Virus record (IMG/VR): IMGVR_UViG_3300014720_000173
Location: 1 to 24,947 of that record
Length of the DNA stretch: 24,947 bases
Origin: a virus
Reading direction: 5' to 3' (one strand)
Part shown: positions 8,266 through 22,336 of the stretch, piece after piece
How positions within the stretch are numbered: the first letter of the stretch is position 1
Layout: each line of letters begins with the position of its first letter
Made by a program: the position numbers and the translations under genes
The notes under the pieces: model-generated
Database searches by the model: none
Seen by the model: the letters and a program-made list of their open reading frames with translations, nothing else
Told to the model about the DNA's origin: nothing

Positions 8266-11223
8266 TTAAGAATTAATTAATTTTGTCAATGGACTTTGTG
8301 CCTTACTGCCGAAATTTACACTGAGAGATGTGCTTAGATCTGCGCTATTAACTGCGCCCGAATTTCTCAACTTTGTTTCCTTACTGCTTGTGTCATTTGT
8401 TAAAATACTTAATGCTTGATCACTGCTTATTACAGAATCAACTGTACTCTTAGCAGAATTTTGACTGGTTAACGGATTAACAAACCGACTAGATTGCTGT
8501 AATAAATTTATTGTGTTAGATCTATCAACACCTGTTAAACTTGTAGGCGTTACCACACCATAGGCGTTTGCTAAACTTGCACCGCCACCTAACTGCATAA
8601 TATCTGCCAGATCAACTGTGTTAATTTCAGCAGCAGGTGCTCTTTGTGCAGGAGCATATGGAGGAATGTTTACAAGGTTAGCAACAGGAATATTGTTTAC
8701 TGCCAGACCTTTTTCTGCTGCTGCTTTAGGATCTACTCCATCAGGAAATACCTTAGCCAATGCACCTAACTGTAACAATGCTAGAGGACTACCGGATTGT
8801 AATTGTTCAGGACTAATACATAGTTTATTAGCCAGTTCGCTGATACCCATGCCTACAGCACTGGTAGCATTTGTTATAGCAGCATTAATTTCTTGTGCAG
8901 TTTTAGCAATAGGGCTAGTTAATTGATTTACACCTTGCTGTATCTGCCCTGCCACAGCATTTATTCCCTGTGCCAAAGGTGCTGTAATACTGTTTACAAC
9001 CTGAGCACCTAACTGATTCAGCCTGCTTAATTCTGATATAGCAGACTGTATCTGTCCGAAAATATTAATACCTATGCAAGGATCTCTCGGTCTAGCAACG
9101 GCCTTAGTAATATCTCTTACAGGAATAGTTTTAGGATCAGGTTCAACAAGAAAACTATCTTCAGGCCTAGTTTCTTCAATTGTAGAATCAGGCAGTATTT
9201 GTCCTGGAAGTCTTGTAATTTGTATACGTTGTTTAAACATACCATCAACAAACATGTGAGTGACTTCTCTAATCCAGAATATTCCGCCGAACTGTGCTTT
9301 GTTACTATCAAATATATAAGCACCGTTAGGACCTATATCAACAGGGTTCCTAAAATTAATCTTAATGAATACCTGTTCAGTGAGATAATTCATCTCACCT
9401 TCAGTGGTAAATCTATTATCTTTTTTGTAAACTTCATTAAATGAATTGCCGTGACCGCTGGTTCCTAGATATAGCGGATCTCCTATAATTTCTATTTCAC
9501 CGTTAATACCGTTTACTACAGAATTAATAATACTTTCATGAAGTTGTTTAGCCATAACATCAAATGCACTAAGACCAGGAGGACCAGCATTCGGTGTATT
9601 GCCAACATGTGTCTGTAACGAAGGCTGTACTAGACGTTGACTAGTTCCTGCTCTATCTTTTTTAGCATTTTCTACATCTGTTCCTCGCTCTTTTACACGA
9701 TTTTTAGCATCCTGAGCAAGACTGTTTTTATTCTCATCAAAATTAGACTGTCCTTTAAACACACTAATATTTTCAAATACTAGATGTTTATAATCTAATT
9801 TCATACTAATTAGATCTGAATTATTTCCTGTGTAAACATAATTGTATTCTCTTAAAATACGATCTTCTAGATCTTCTGCGGGCCACTTTTGTGCTGAAAA
9901 GCCAGGAATCTTTGTATAATGAACTGCATAAGGAACTACAATGTACGTATATTCTGTATAATTCTTATTAGAGACAGGGTCAATTTTAGGTTTGAGTTTA
10001 GTTCTAGGATGAATCATAAACCAATCAACCATACCGTTTTGAGGAATTTCTCCTTGATGCATCTTTTCTAGTAAACGTCTACCGTATTCACTGTCACGAA
10101 TTACTGCTTCAATAACAGAAGTAACATTAGTATTTTCATTGAATACACTAACACTAGATTGATTCTCCCCTTCTTTGACTCTACCGGTATCATCTACTCT
10201 GTTAGGATCGCCTGCATCAATACCTCTAGGTAACACATAATCTTTGCCTGGGGTTTTTAATTTAGATTTTGAAAAATAATTGTCTTTTACTGTAAGATCT
10301 ATATCACCTTTACTATCCACATCAGCAAACAGTATTTCGTAACTGTCAGATTCTGCTGCTGCTTCTTTATCTTTACTGGTGTTATTATTTTTCTTTACCT
10401 GTTCATTAAGATTTTTAGTTAGATTACCGAGTACTTCACCTACCGTGTTACCCTGAACACTAACCGGTATTTTTAATTTGTTAGGATTACCGAAGGCGCT
10501 CTCATGAAACGGAAATCCTTTACAGGCATATTTTGTACCACGTTCTGTAAATTCTTGTTGAATGTCGTTAAATCTAACTACAAAGTATCTATCAGAAAAA
10601 TCAATAGTTTCCGGTTCTGTAATATCTAAGCCATCAGGATATCCCTTAAATTCTATTTTAAATAAGAAAGGAGTTCCTATAGGACTTATATAACCTGCGC
10701 CTACACTGGCAACATGTAATGCTTCGATAAATCCGTTTATACTATAAGGTTCAAATACATCAAAACTTATTGTTTGCCCCAGTGTAGCACCTAGAGCATA
10801 TGTTGAAATAGTTTTTATCTCAATATTATTGATATACATATCGAAACGACCGGGACTTTTTAAATTAAAGTCTCTGACAATATCCCCTGCTTCTTTCGCA
10901 GATATTATTGTTGTAGTCGACTGCCCTAATTCGTTTTCATTAATAGTTTGTCTTGTTACATCTACAGATGCACTAGCCCGTAGTTCATTAATATCTTTGC
11001 CTGCTGAACTGAGTACTATTAAATCAAGTTGGTCAGTACTTACTTTCCAACTGTCAACATTATCTAGTTTTTCTTGACTGAGTGCTGCTAGAGTAATGTT
11101 ATAGGTATAAGATCGATATTTGTCTAATACATTGCCCTTAATAAAATCAGGAATAGGATCACTAGGCAATCTGGTGCTAGTTACTGTAACAGCCTCAGTT
11201 TTTCTTTCAACTTCTTCAGCCAT
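8266..11223 (-). CDS. Large baseplate hub protein, gp27-like by position
   Basis: This 985-residue protein starts one base after the gp53 gene and ends one base before the gp5-like gene, so it is cotranscribed with both. In T4 the hub is gp27 (391 residues) bound to gp5; the context makes this the likely hub ring protein, analogous to gpD/VgrG N-terminal tube-adaptor domains. The first 250 residues are beta-rich (YTYNITLAALS, YINNIEIKTIST, YFVVRFNDIQQEFTERG), and 400-680 contain further globular sequence (WFMIHPRTKLKPKID, FKQRIQITRLPGQ). The last 270 or so residues are unlike gp27: rich in Ala, Gln, Ser and Asn with helical stretches (SELSRLNQLGAQVVNS, ANKLCISPEQLQ), perhaps a coiled or disordered extension. 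I recognise no catalytic motif. Structural hub role is inferred mainly from position. Confidence 0.65.
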   Translation of the reverse strand: MAEEVERKTEAVTVTSTRLPSDPIPDFIKGNVLDKYRSYTYNITLAALSQEKLDNVDSWKVSTDQLDLIVLSSAGKDINELRASASVDVTRQTINENELGQSTTTIISAKEAGDIVRDFNLKSPGRFDMYINNIEIKTISTYALGATLGQTISFDVFEPYSINGFIEALHVASVGAGYISPIGTPFLFKIEFKGYPDGLDITEPETIDFSDRYFVVRFNDIQQEFTERGTKYACKGFPFHESAFGNPNKLKIPVSVQGNTVGEVLGNLTKNLNEQVKKNNNTSKDKEAAAESDSYEILFADVDSKGDIDLTVKDNYFSKSKLKTPGKDYVLPRGIDAGDPNRVDDTGRVKEGENQSSVSVFNENTNVTSVIEAVIRDSEYGRRLLEKMHQGEIPQNGMVDWFMIHPRTKLKPKIDPVSNKNYTEYTYIVVPYAVHYTKIPGFSAQKWPAEDLEDRILREYNYVYTGNNSDLISMKLDYKHLVFENISVFKGQSNFDENKNSLAQDAKNRVKERGTDVENAKKDRAGTSQRLVQPSLQTHVGNTPNAGPPGLSAFDVMAKQLHESIINSVVNGINGEIEIIGDPLYLGTSGHGNSFNEVYKKDNRFTTEGEMNYLTEQVFIKINFRNPVDIGPNGAYIFDSNKAQFGGIFWIREVTHMFVDGMFKQRIQITRLPGQILPDSTIEETRPEDSFLVEPDPKTIPVRDITKAVARPRDPCIGINIFGQIQSAISELSRLNQLGAQVVNSITAPLAQGINAVAGQIQQGVNQLTSPIAKTAQEINAAITNATSAVGMGISELANKLCISPEQLQSGSPLALLQLGALAKVFPDGVDPKAAAEKGLAVNNIPVANLVNIPPYAPAQRAPAAEINTVDLADIMQLGGGASLANAYGVVTPTSLTGVDRSNTINLLQQSSRFVNPLTSQNSAKSTVDSVISSDQALSILTNDTSSKETKLRNSGAVNSADLSTSLSVNFGSKAQSPLTKLINS

Positions 11224-17850: not shown

Positions 17851-18320
17851 CGGCTAGCGCAGGCTAACTTCATGCGCCCTAAACCTGGACTCCGTGTCGC
17901 AGGGATGGAATCGTCGCCGGAACGATAACTCGACCACTACCCTTAAAGGATGAAGATCACAAACTGCCGTGATTTGGTTGTTTGAACAGGATATAAAGGC
18001 TAAAAGACGCTGATTTTTTTCAGCACGTCTTACACATATGATAGCGTATACGTGTAAGACCGCCGTTGTAACGAAGACGGGACGAGTAGGTACCGGACAA
18101 CCGCCTACACTATGTAACATAAAGAAAGCATTTAACAGTTAAATGTCATCTTTATAGCGCATTATAGTCCTAACGCTGTGTGACTATGCTACTCAGATGA
18201 TGCATAACTTCGCCCTGTCTGGGCGAAGTGTGACCACTTTATCTAGATGATACTAAAACATCTGCGATGAAATAAATGCGATGAGTGAAACGAAGAGCAA
18301 ACGAACGCAGTTCGTTTCAC
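17851..18320 (+). ncRNA. Candidate large structured non-coding RNA, unassigned
   Basis: No credible gene covers 17851-18360. The first 100 bases are 57% G+C by hand count, against 38% in a 60-base sample of the gene before it. Inverted repeats, with no mismatch unless stated: CCTGGAC 17884-17890 with GTC-G-CAGG 17896-17903 (one bulge); ATCGT/ACGAT 17912-17928 approx.; ATCAC 17956-17960/GTGAT 17969-17973; AAGACGCTGA 18004-18013 with TCAG and CGTCTT to 18031; GTCTTACAC 18027-18035/GTGTAAGAC 18052-18060; GTAGG 18086-18090/CCTAC 18104-18108; two 7-bp helices 18119-18155; ATAGTC 18164-18169/GACTAT 18182-18187; ACTTCGCCC 18207-18215/GGGCGAAGT 18221-18229; GTGAAACGAA 18285-18294/TTCGTTTCAC 18311-18320. 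Such density suggests an ornate phage RNA of about 470 nt, in the size range of GOLLD or ROOL, though I cannot match it to either. The strand is assumed from the flanking genes. A DNA-level role such as an origin is the main alternative. No clear promoter directly upstream. Confidence 0.6.
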
Positions 18321-18323
18321 TTA

Positions 18324-18331
18324 TATAAATA
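18324..18331 (+). promoter_or_regulatory. Perfect late promoter box TATAAATA
   Basis: An exact match to the T4 late consensus TATAAATA. Predicted start is 18337, giving a 24-nt leader containing a TGAGGT ribosome binding site (18348-18353) before the ATG at 18361. The box begins 4 bases after the last hairpin of the structured region, so it both marks a boundary of that region and assigns the downstream gene to late expression. Confidence 0.8.
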
Positions 18332-18360: not shown

Positions 18361-18867
18361 ATGAAAATTTCTGAATTAATCGAAAATACAGAGCAGGTAA
18401 ACGAGTTAGGTATGACTCCTATGGGTATAGGGCAACGTATGGCTACAGGTGCTCTGGCAAAACTGGGATCAACTACGGCTGCGGCTAATCTAGATGTAGG
18501 TAAGAGAGCGAACGAACTTAATACAACATTTAGACAATGGGCTCTACGTTCAGGAATTAATCTAGGGAGTGTGCCTCAAAAAGATATTCAGACATTTATG
18601 AAGCAGCAGGGTTTACCCGGTATGCCTATGCGTCAAAGCATTTATGACCTAAATGATAAAGCCACTAACAGTGCATTATGGAAGGCAGTTGCTCAGAATG
18701 CGTATAAGAGTAGTGGCAGTGCGGCTACAAGTGCTCCGCTAGGACAAAAATATAATGTAGGCAGCGGCTCTAGTAGTAGTGGCAGTGCTGATATACTTAA
18801 TCAAATACAAGGCATGCTGGGCAGTCTAACACCTCAACAACGTGCTAAACTAAAAACAGCACTTTAA
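18361..18867 (+). CDS. Small late protein with internal-protein-like N-terminus, function unknown
   Basis: This 168-residue protein has a good ribosome binding site (TGAGGT, 7 nt before the ATG) and a perfect late promoter, so it is probably a virion or assembly protein. Its N-terminus, MKISELIENTEQ, resembles the capsid-targeting leader of T4 internal proteins (MKTYQEFIAEA), including an LxE triplet (LIE, 6-8) of the sort cut by the prohead protease gp21. The middle is Ala/Gly-rich and helical (TTFRQWALRSGINLG, 45-59), and residues about 118-142 are a Gly/Ser-rich linker (GSGSSSSGSADI) before a short helical end (LTPQQRAKLKTAL). No catalytic motif is visible. It converges on the gp51-like gene with a 4-base stop-stop overlap. 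Internal head protein is my best guess; a general marine phage structural protein is the alternative. Confidence 0.7.
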   Translation: MKISELIENTEQVNELGMTPMGIGQRMATGALAKLGSTTAAANLDVGKRANELNTTFRQWALRSGINLGSVPQKDIQTFMKQQGLPGMPMRQSIYDLNDKATNSALWKAVAQNAYKSSGSAATSAPLGQKYNVGSGSSSSGSADILNQIQGMLGSLTPQQRAKLKTAL

Positions 18868-19091
18868 AAGAAAGGTAATCCACTCTTTTGAGTAGTCTCT
18901 AAGTTTTCTGTAATAATCTCTGCGATTATTTCTCTATCTATGATGTCAAGTTGATAGATCTGCTCCATAGTTAAGGAGCCTCGCATAAACCATCCTATCT
19001 TAAACAATTCTTTTTTATAGGCTTTTGACTCTCGGTCTAACTTTTCTACTTCTTTTTCTATCTGTTCATTAGAAAGAGTCAAAAGCCTCAT
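18864..19091 (-). CDS. gp51-like tail/hub assembly protein, candidate frameshift extension of gp26
   Basis: This 75-residue frame follows gp26 on the minus strand. Its ATG overlaps the gp26 stop (ATGA), so it may be made by reinitiation, but it is also exactly in the -1 frame after a slippery site and so may mainly exist as the C-terminal part of a gp26 fusion. The sequence is highly charged and helical (NEQIEKEVEKLDRESKAYKK, then SLTMEQIYQLDIIDREIIAE). By position it matches T4 gp51, a hub assembly factor absent from mature tails; lambda gpT plays the comparable part in long-tailed phages. A role in loading the tape measure protein is inferred from the neighbouring tape measure gene. T4 gp51 is considerably longer, so the name is by analogy. 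Confidence 0.65.
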   Translation of the reverse strand: MRLLTLSNEQIEKEVEKLDRESKAYKKELFKIGWFMRGSLTMEQIYQLDIIDREIIAEIITENLETTQKSGLPFF

Positions 19092-19100
19092 GCGAAAAAA
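19019..19100 (-). promoter_or_regulatory. Programmed -1 ribosomal frameshift signal at the gp26 3' end
   Basis: On the minus strand the heptamer T TTT TTC occupies 19100-19094 in the gp26 phase required for simultaneous slippage. After a 5-nt spacer (GCATG) a stem begins: AGGCTTTTGACTCT (19088-19075) pairs perfectly over 14 bp with AGAGTCAAAAGCCT (19032-19019), closing a 42-nt loop, in which TCTAA and TTAGA can add a further 5 bp. Slippage before the gp26 TGA gives codons CGC ATG AGG, entering the gp51-like frame and making a 364-residue product (288 gp26 residues, Arg, then all 75 residues). Confidence 0.85.
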
Positions 19101-19957
19101 TCAGATTCATTAAAGTTTAAGGGTATAGTATACTTGGCAGGAGCACCTGCTGCCTGTTGTTCCAGTGTAGATTCAAATTCTAAAGGCTTGAGATCATTGT
19201 GCTTCTTAAGTTCAGCAAGATGATTCTGTATTATATCAAATATGGCCTTGTCTACATTTTCAATAAATTCTGCTATAACTTTTTTATCAGTAACTTCTGC
19301 ATCCTCTGATAGTATTCTATCTATGCTGTCTACCATTAGTTCTGTGGTAATGTTAGTTAACATCTTAAAACTTTGATTAACATAGGCCATCTTTTTCTCA
19401 TCACTGAGTTTATCGTCATTTACAACCTGTAGTATTTTCTGTGTCTCAAAGGTTTTTATACTCATCTGTGTCATATGTCTATATGTCAAGGGTTTAACAA
19501 AGACAACAAGACTTTCATTGATTATGACCTGTTCTATCCAATAATTCTGACTTTGTTGTTCTAATACCTGTCTTAGGTCTAGGTCGTAATCTACTTCTTC
19601 ATCAGTATCCGGGACTGTATGTTTGAAAGGCATCTTCTCACCGTAGGTTGCTAGACGTATAGCAACTAGAATTGTGTCTAGGTCCAGGGTAGGACACTTC
19701 CAAGCATCCTTGATATTAGGCAAACAACTTTGTATAACATCCACAATACCCTGCCCGTTCATTAGAGCGTCCGGAGTTTTAAACATTAATTCATCTTTGG
19801 CTGTCATGGAATATACAGGTAACTCTGAATTTTCCGGCATGTCTATGCTGCCCGGAGGCCAATATTGCCCGTTACTGGGTAATCTAATATAGATTTTAGG
19901 CTGACGCATCCATTGACTCAGCGGATTATTCTTGATTTTGGGTTGAAACTGCTGCAT
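19088..19957 (-). CDS. 26: Baseplate hub assembly protein gp26 (T4 tail-assembly chaperone type)
   Basis: This 289-residue protein belongs to the T4 gp26-type family. The signature is the N-terminal NPLSQWMRQPKIYIRLPSNG with QYWPPGSIDMP, PVYSMTAKDELMFKTPDALM and the segment around CLPNIKDAWKCPTLDLDTIL (about 88-107), all typical of this family. gp26 is needed to build the baseplate hub, and the family is thought comparable to the tail-assembly chaperones (lambda gpG) that hold the tape measure protein before tube assembly. The gene lies back-to-back with the tape measure gene, which supports that role. Start: GGAG lies about 8 nt before the ATG, and a perfect late box is 38-45 nt upstream. 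Its last codons form a slippery site feeding the gp51-like frame. Confidence 0.88.
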   Translation of the reverse strand: MQQFQPKIKNNPLSQWMRQPKIYIRLPSNGQYWPPGSIDMPENSELPVYSMTAKDELMFKTPDALMNGQGIVDVIQSCLPNIKDAWKCPTLDLDTILVAIRLATYGEKMPFKHTVPDTDEEVDYDLDLRQVLEQQSQNYWIEQVIINESLVVFVKPLTYRHMTQMSIKTFETQKILQVVNDDKLSDEKKMAYVNQSFKMLTNITTELMVDSIDRILSEDAEVTDKKVIAEFIENVDKAIFDIIQNHLAELKKHNDLKPLEFESTLEQQAAGAPAKYTIPLNFNESDFFA

Positions 19958-20029: not shown

Positions 20030-22336
20030 ATGTCAGCAGCAACAGAAGCCACGTTAGAAGAATTATTATACGTCGCTAGATCGCAGAATACCAATTTGAA
20101 TAATATTCAACGACTGCTATCCGGCAGCGGTGGAGGTGGTGGCGGTAATGCTGGCGTAGGCAATGCTAGCCGTGACGCTGAACGTAATATAAGATCGATG
20201 AGTGCTGCCAGTGCTGCTGCCAGCGCTGCGCTAGGTGCTTTAAAACTTGCTAGTAATCTAGTAGGTGGTATTATAGGCACAGTAGTAGATGTGTTTAAAT
20301 CTCTAGTAGGTGGTATAACAAAAACAATACAAAACTTAGTACAATTTGGGCAAATGGCAATGATGGGCACAGCAAGACTCAGTGATTTTTATAGTGCTCT
20401 AGGTGATTTGCCCTTCTTCATGGGCACAATATTTCGAATGTACTCTGATATTATTCGTGTACGTGAAGCGACTCTAGATTCATTTAGACAAATATCAACA
20501 TCAGGGGCAACGTTTGGAGGCAGTCTAACTGAGTTTAGAAACACAGCCTTTAGAGCAAGGCTTACCATGCAGGAATTCAGCGAAGCAGTTAGAGGCAGTG
20601 CTGAAGCACTAGCCCCCATAGGCACGCAAGAAGGCGCACGTAGGTTCGGCTCTATAGTAGCACAACTAACTAGTGGTGCAATGAGCAATGCCCTATTCGG
20701 ACTAGGTTATACTGCTAAACAAATAGCAGATGGCACAGGCACGTTCCTCAGTGTAATCGGTGGCATGAATAGAGCAAGAGCAATGAGCGATGCTCAACTG
20801 GCTCAAGGTGCAGCGGGATTGTTATTAGAAATAGATTTATTAGCAAAGGCCACAGGCAAGAGCAGAGAAGAAGCAGAAAAAGCACTTAAGGATAAACAAT
20901 TTCAAGGTGCATTTGAATACTTTACAAACAGTCTAGCAACTGAACAAAAAACTGCGGTAAGGGCTATGATTAGTAGAGTGCAGGAAACTAGCCCTGCACT
21001 AGCAGACTTTATTAAACAGTTCTTAATGACAGGTGGTGGTCCTCTAGTAGCAATGAACGATCAGATGAGCGCTCTATTCTCTAGTATAGGCCCAGGACTG
21101 CAAGGCCTAGTAGCAGATTTTGCTGCTGCAGGAACACAGACTAAAGATTTAGCAGCGCGAGAAGCAGCATTAGAAATTAATCTAACTCGTGCAGCACGCA
21201 TGTTTGAAAGTAATGTGGTTACACCGCTAGGCAAATCTGCGTCTTATCTTGCCTTGCTTAACAACCCATTGCTTGCTCACGCAGGTTTGTTTAGTAGAGC
21301 GGTACGACAACAGGGAATGTCTGTTGATGAACAGACAAAGATATCTAAGCGTAATGTAGATGAACAAAACAAGGCTGCTAAAGGATCAGCAGCAGCCGCA
21401 GCACAGGCTGAATACAACATTAGACAATTCGGACAGGGCATATTTGCCATGGTAGAAAAGTTTATTACCCCTATAGCGCAACAATTAGAAGGTGTTTTAA
21501 AACAGTTTGTAGAATTTTTATTACCTACTATTAAAAAAATAATAAATTGGGCTATAGATTCTTTTAACTATATCAGCAAGGCACCTAGTATAGAGGAAGG
21601 ACTTAGAAGATTTTTTGAAAAAATGTCTCAAGGTTTAGGAAATGCTTGGGACGCAATACAGCCTGCCTGGATTAGAGTTATCAGGCCGGCAATGGAAAAA
21701 GTCTTTACAGAATTTGCAAACTTTATGAGACCTTATCTAGTTAAAATGTTAGATGGAATATTAGATACACTTAATGCATGGGCATATAGTATAATAGGGC
21801 CTAGGTTCGGTGTTGAAAATCCTGAGTTAAGACAATCAAGACGTAATGTTGAACATCAACAAATGGATTTAGACAGGTTACAAAGATTATATAATTCATA
21901 TGTAGGTGCGCTAGGAGTTAACGCAACAGAAACAAGAGATGCTCAAAATCAAATTCTTGAAGGTAATAGAAAGTTAGCCGAGTTAAAGCGTATACATGAA
22001 GAGACACGAGCTAGAATTAAATCAGGTATAAATCCGGATGTTCCTCCAATTATGAGCCCTGAAGGTGGAAGACATAGCGGAACAATAGGAATGACTGGTA
22101 GTTGGTGGGAGAAAGAATCCAAAACCTTAAATGTTCAGGCCGGAGAAACAGTTGCTACACAGGATCAAATCAAACAGATAGTGGACTATGCTAGTCAGAA
22201 CGGCGGAAATAATGAGTTATCACGCTTAAATACACTAATGGCGCAACTTGTTAAAGAAACTCAGAGAGTAGCAGATAACACTGCTCGCACCCTACAGGCC
22301 ACAAAGGAACTAAACGGCAACTTATACGCCGCATAA
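20030..22336 (+). CDS. Tail tape measure protein (gp29 equivalent)
   Basis: This 768-residue protein has the hallmarks of a tape measure protein: long helical, Ala/Gln/Arg-rich sequence, hydrophobic membrane-like stretches (about 75-115, LKLASNLVGGIIGTVVDVFK and following; and about 485-520, VLKQFVEFLLPTIKKIINWA) and a heptad-rich C-terminus (LSRLNTLMAQLVKETQRVAD, then TLQATKELNGNLYAA). It sets tail-tube length and is ejected with the DNA. T4 gp29 has 590 residues; at the usual 0.15 nm per residue this one would specify a tail of roughly 110-115 nm. A glycine run (GSGGGGGGNAG, about 32-42) marks an N-terminal hinge. Neighbours gp26/gp51-like and portal fit. The start is taken at the first ATG after a weak CCGGAAC; conservation begins at once (SAATEATLEELLYVA). 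Confidence 0.88.
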   Translation: MSAATEATLEELLYVARSQNTNLNNIQRLLSGSGGGGGGNAGVGNASRDAERNIRSMSAASAAASAALGALKLASNLVGGIIGTVVDVFKSLVGGITKTIQNLVQFGQMAMMGTARLSDFYSALGDLPFFMGTIFRMYSDIIRVREATLDSFRQISTSGATFGGSLTEFRNTAFRARLTMQEFSEAVRGSAEALAPIGTQEGARRFGSIVAQLTSGAMSNALFGLGYTAKQIADGTGTFLSVIGGMNRARAMSDAQLAQGAAGLLLEIDLLAKATGKSREEAEKALKDKQFQGAFEYFTNSLATEQKTAVRAMISRVQETSPALADFIKQFLMTGGGPLVAMNDQMSALFSSIGPGLQGLVADFAAAGTQTKDLAAREAALEINLTRAARMFESNVVTPLGKSASYLALLNNPLLAHAGLFSRAVRQQGMSVDEQTKISKRNVDEQNKAAKGSAAAAAQAEYNIRQFGQGIFAMVEKFITPIAQQLEGVLKQFVEFLLPTIKKIINWAIDSFNYISKAPSIEEGLRRFFEKMSQGLGNAWDAIQPAWIRVIRPAMEKVFTEFANFMRPYLVKMLDGILDTLNAWAYSIIGPRFGVENPELRQSRRNVEHQQMDLDRLQRLYNSYVGALGVNATETRDAQNQILEGNRKLAELKRIHEETRARIKSGINPDVPPIMSPEGGRHSGTIGMTGSWWEKESKTLNVQAGETVATQDQIKQIVDYASQNGGNNELSRLNTLMAQLVKETQRVADNTARTLQATKELNGNLYAA

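Follow-up and report, generated by a model that had tools for sequence, protein, structure and literature searches.

A predicted −1 frameshift signal with a covarying hairpin at the end of a gp26-like gene in T4-related phages

The gp26-like gene, its 3′ end and its neighbourhood

The window analysed here is the whole stretch of 24,947 nucleotides of the IMG/VR virus record IMGVR_UViG_3300014720_000173. Its minus strand carries at positions 19088–19957 a gene for a gp26-like protein of 289 aa (the short form, TAC-N). The ORF matches the Pfam family PF12322 (T4_baseplate) with an E-value of 3.4e-13 and 50.2 bits, which is above the gathering cut-off of 24.5, and phrog_150 (baseplate hub) with an E-value of 3.8e-15. 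The AlphaFold2 model of the protein (pLDDT 83.5) has matches among predicted baseplate hub assembly proteins of the T4 type (E-value 2.9e-21). Nothing credible was returned when the PDB was searched with a gp26 profile or, by Foldseek, with the models of gp26 and of the extension; Foldseek likewise found no TAC of solved structure that resembles gp26. Pairs of CxxC motifs resembling a zinc site occur in the gp26-like proteins of jumbo phages (L036-L044) and T4, and are absent in the window's protein.

The gp26 ORF ends with the minus-strand sequence GAT TTT TTC GCA TGA. It contains the heptamer T_TTT_TTC in gp26 phase (19094–19100), the 5-nt spacer GCATG that separates the heptamer from the stem (19089–19093), and the 0-frame stop TGA (19088–19090), which overlaps an ATG at 19091–19089 (ATGA). 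The −1 frame is open until a stop at 18866–18864. By conceptual translation a −1 shift would join gp26 residues 1–288 to an extension of 76 aa (TAC-C, 18864–19094 including the stop), and the predicted fusion product (TAC-NC, 18864–19957) of 364 aa would read ...DFF-RMRLL... across the junction. The phase of the heptamer, the length of the spacer and a fusion of 364 residues without an intervening stop had all been proposed in an earlier sequence-only reading and are borne out. The sequence TTTTTTC alone is not rare, with 13 occurrences in the window and 8.4 expected. Among the 18 predicted genes checked, no end other than that of gp26 has an in-phase X_XXY_YYZ within 45 nt; the next-nearest sits 49 nt from a stop.

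Adjoining the gene and divergent from it lies a plus-strand gene for a protein of 768 aa (20030–22336). A homologous divergent neighbour is present in 10/10 relatives examined and spans 688–1097 codons from stop to stop. The Pfam search with the 768-aa protein gave no tape-measure match, and we regard this conserved, length-variable, head-to-head neighbour as the tape-measure candidate of the window's clade. The sequence-only reading had placed the signal directly beside the tape measure gene; what adjoins it is this conserved candidate, divergent in direction. In the same region, positions 17852–17983 of the plus strand match the Rfam family RF01718 (Polynucleobacter-1 RNA, 101 bits). This phage-borne RNA occurs near the chaperone gene also in L002, L003, L012, L029 and L091, so its place is conserved.

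Slippery site and extension in the relatives

At least 596 environmental stretches code for relatives of the gp26-like protein. They were fetched by patterns at approximately residues 48–70, far from the heptamer, and the best 80 of them were compared. The in-phase T_TTT_TTC is kept in all 77 of these 80 that have sequence across the site, an outcome that the sequence-only reading had named as support, and stands 10 or 19 nt ahead of the 0-frame stop. In the same 77 relatives the −1 extension is open for 75–76 codons wherever the contig covers it; two of the contigs are truncated. FF dipeptides elsewhere in these loci are encoded by T_TTT_TTC in only 8 of 113 cases (7%).

The heptamer layout is also found in 11/11 jumbo-phage records (PA5oct, 30-3, Atu_ph07, CBB, Phosso, XaC1, RaK2, 121Q, Vibrio 2.275.O, SCTP-2 and BF), in which the 0-frame stop follows 10–40 nt from the heptamer, and the 76-aa extension is homologous to the jumbo-phage extensions (E-value 1.6e-20). 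T_TTT_TTC in S-PM2, P-SSM2, KVP40 and Aeh1, and T_TTT_TTT in HTVC008M, Cr30 and phiM12, stand where the −1 frame enters the short gp51. An SD-like GGAGGG was observed approximately 10 nt 5′ of the slippery site in P-SSM2, S-PM2 and Cr30 (L053, L054 and L056), a spacing that is dnaX-like. Such an upstream SD stimulator was looked for in the window clade and the jumbo phages, and is absent from both.

Alternatively, the two frames might be separate genes with translational coupling: a restart at ATGA would yield a free protein of 75 aa, and heptamer and stem would be incidental or regulate initiation. The window itself has the ATGA, and 13 of 104 unique relatives likewise have an ATG at the stop. 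Against this, gp26 ends with TAA at that place in 70 of the 104, and in 22 of the 77 relatives (among the 80 best of the at least 596) no ATG, GTG or TTG lies within 11 codons of the junction; PA5oct and RaK2 likewise lack a start codon near it. With an ATG at the stop in few relatives and no nearby start in many, the −1 ORF cannot be accounted for by separate translation. Coupling also predicts neither the invariant in-phase heptamer nor the constant −1 relation. As a family-wide mechanism it is refuted by the missing start codons, and we consider it very unlikely to account for the locus. In many relatives the downstream frame is not a gene of its own, since it has no usable start codon there.

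A divergent relative, L091, deviates from the general pattern. At positions 9021–9100 of its 148-kb contig the heptamer and the 5′ arm are kept, and an in-frame TAG stands 12 codons into the extension; the peptide past the TAG is still clearly homologous to the extension. Recoding of TAG is unsupported, as the long ORFs of the locus are open without reading it through. The amber codon may be a sequencing error, a natural knockout or decay. A search for siblings returned L091 alone.

The naming of the extension deserves some care. T4 gp26 and T4 gp51 both belong to PF12322 (E-values 8.8e-64 and 3.9e-52), and T4 gp51 corresponds to a complete gp26 paralog to which a C-terminal extension is added. 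The curated profiles link both proteins; an HHalign comparison of the gp26 alignment with the single T4 gp51 gave no link. The extra C-terminal part of T4 gp51 matches the short cyanophage gp51 (phrog_634), and in cyanophages and KVP40 the short ORF after gp26 is named gp51. The 76-aa extension is clearly the positional equivalent of the T4 gp51 C-terminus. In sequence, the jumbo-phage extensions match cyanophage gp51 plus the T4 tail weakly (E-value 2.7e-4, probability 41%), and a direct comparison of the window-clade extension with the T4 gp51 tail is weak as well (probability 1.8%). The label “gp51-like” thus fits the cyanophage and KVP40 naming and is less apt with respect to T4, where gp51 is the full-length paralog; for the extension it is justified more by position than by similarity in sequence.

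The hairpin downstream of the heptamer

The putative stimulatory stem is formed on the minus strand by a 5′ arm at 19075–19088 and a 3′ arm at 19019–19032. It comprises 14 perfect base pairs with a loop of 42 nt and starts 5 nt past the heptamer. A perfect 14-bp stem had been described before; its 5′ arm had been placed 2 nt before the end of the gp26 stop and in fact starts on the last base of that stop. The stem is the sole perfect inverted repeat of at least 12 bp in the window (loop up to 100 nt). The chance expectation of a 14-bp repeat is about 0.02 per window and about 4e-6 at the junction spot, which agrees with the earlier judgement that such a repeat at this spacing is very unlikely by chance. 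The RNA fold of the junction segment has a z-score of −4.3 and is more stable than 200 shuffles. Elsewhere in the window, at 18281–18324, a near-perfect 14-nt inverted repeat (93%) with a 16-nt loop lies just before a 168-aa plus-strand ORF at 18361.

Covariation of the stem was counted in the window's register. Over 14 pairs and 14 distinct sequences, 95.9% of the cells are standard pairs, compared to 30–57% for slid control structures. Two-sided, compensatory changes occur at 4 stem pairs, and the observed covariation score was reached by 0/500 shuffles, so that pairing is kept through compensatory changes, which the sequence-only reading had named as support. If 51 sequences in this register are chosen by pairs 2–9 only, pairs 10 and 11 are still paired in 88–92% of them, with several Watson-Crick types.

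One could argue that the arrangement is a coincidence, the FF codons being constrained by the protein and the stem being a by-product of coding RLL..ESKA. The FF dipeptide and parts of the extension are indeed conserved as protein. Synonymous recoding of the −1 frame matched the window stem in 0/300 cases, the window stem being better than 300/300, and the stem also beats such recodings in most of the window's clade. Together with the rare use of T_TTT_TTC for FF elsewhere and the compensatory changes, this recoding null refutes the coincidence, to which we attach next to no credence.

In other subclades different stems take the same place, for instance AGGATCTTACC/GGTGAGATCCT. The stem of S-PM2 is TGTTCTATAATAAT/ATTATTATAGAACA, and the hairpins of P-SSM2 and S-PM2 are unrelated in sequence to that of the window. 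Among 73 unique sequences drawn from the 80 best of the at least 596 relatives, 66 have their best stem beginning 3–6 nt past the heptamer. Folding of the junctions did not find a strong hairpin in HTVC008M, BF, RaK2, L126, L135 and L164.

The position of the hairpin also bears on transcriptional slippage at the T6 run, by which mRNAs one base longer or shorter would give the fusion. The run is present at the site; six T are short for slippage of bacterial RNA polymerase, which counts against this explanation. The conserved phase and a hairpin 3–6 nt downstream, near the 5–8 nt distance given for ribosomal frameshift stimulators (PMC4066793), fit ribosomal slippage instead. Transcriptional slippage therefore appears highly improbable.

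Proposed mechanism and comparison with known systems

We propose, with a probability of about 0.9, that one gene gives rise to short and long tail assembly chaperones of the lambda G/GT type by −1 frameshifting. Most ribosomes would stop at TGA and release the short gp26-like protein. A minority may pause at the hairpin, where tRNA-Phe could exchange its pairing with UUU-UUC for one with UUU-UUU in the −1 frame; the shifted ribosomes would read 76 more codons to complete the long form of 364 aa. Both the shift and its rate are an inference. By analogy with lambda gpG/gpGT, the tape measure protein might become covered with many short and few long forms, the latter recruiting tail tube subunits through their helical C-terminal extension.

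The chaperone function is suggested by the family, the gene order in relatives and the literature. The frameshift could be real and the protein nevertheless a component of the baseplate hub, as databases label PF12322 and phrog_150 baseplate or baseplate hub and older T4 genetics put gp26 in the hub (PMC3004832). The same review gives gp26 and gp51 as hub assembly chaperones (PMC3004832), and later work, as cited in the relevant passages of PMC10885494, names them tail assembly chaperones. The nearly classical order in HTVC008M (tail tube, 26, 51, small ORF, tape measure) is a further argument against a hub component, and in KVP40 tail tube, 26 and 51 are followed by an unnamed large gene. A hub component is accordingly an unlikely reading, and we keep to that of a tail assembly chaperone.

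The claim of a lambda gpG/gpGT-like arrangement in a T4-type phage is supported by heptamer, phase and covarying stem in the relatives. As in lambda, a −1 slip shortly before a tail gene ends is predicted to give a minor, C-terminally extended form, and in HTVC008M and KVP40 the gene lies between the tail tube and the tape measure or large gene. The lambda slippery sequence is G_GGA_AAG, whereas the window has T_TTT_TTC. The window family further differs by its strong covarying hairpin, in the window's clade the gene and the tape-measure candidate are divergently arranged, and the searches made found no relation of the protein families.

Among T4-like phages, chaperones of the PF12322 family with short and long forms are already described in what is reported of Vladimirov et al. 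2022 (Virology 566:9-15). According to the account in PRFect (PMC10885494), some T4-like phages do not frameshift and have a short gene as well as a fused one; the passage citing the same work in the Adele paper (PMC12846349) mentions that TAC-N genes of T4-like phages have poly-T slippery sequences. As in the window, the gp51 of cyanophages and KVP40 is a −1 extension. T4, RB49, RB43 and Ac42 instead have a short and a long paralogous gene of the family, so that the two forms come from separate genes and not from one gene with a predicted frameshift. Phage Adele (Vandenendeviridae/Andersonviridae) shares a conserved −1 frameshift at a T-rich motif, GTTTTT, near the TAC-N end and an extension that is routinely missed in annotation, as stated in the corresponding passages of PMC12846349. 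It belongs to another phage lineage, and the passages on its frameshift do not mention a covarying hairpin.

The −1 frameshift strategy is thus known from lambda G/GT and has been discussed for T4-like phages. The covarying hairpin, the spread to jumbo phages and the unannotated extension may be new. It seems probable that the ancestral state of the T4-related supergroup, including jumbo phages of 280–490 kb, was a frameshifted single gene with U_UUU_UUY, in most cases with a hairpin behind it that evolves independently. In T4, RB49, RB43 and Ac42 a duplication would then have put genes 26 and 51 in its place, T4 gene 51 being the fixed fusion form.

For annotation this means that phage records list the C-terminal extension as a separate small gene (S-PM2, KVP40, 121Q) or miss it altogether (RaK2, PA5oct). 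The locus also extends the set of recoding signals by one that is strongly backed by covariation. According to a review of 2016, the G/GT-type frameshift is conserved widely among long-tailed phages “except T4” (PMC5009743); a signal of this type is present in many T4 relatives. That T4 genes 26 and 51 correspond in these relatives to the short and the long form of one chaperone offers a testable account of both genes.
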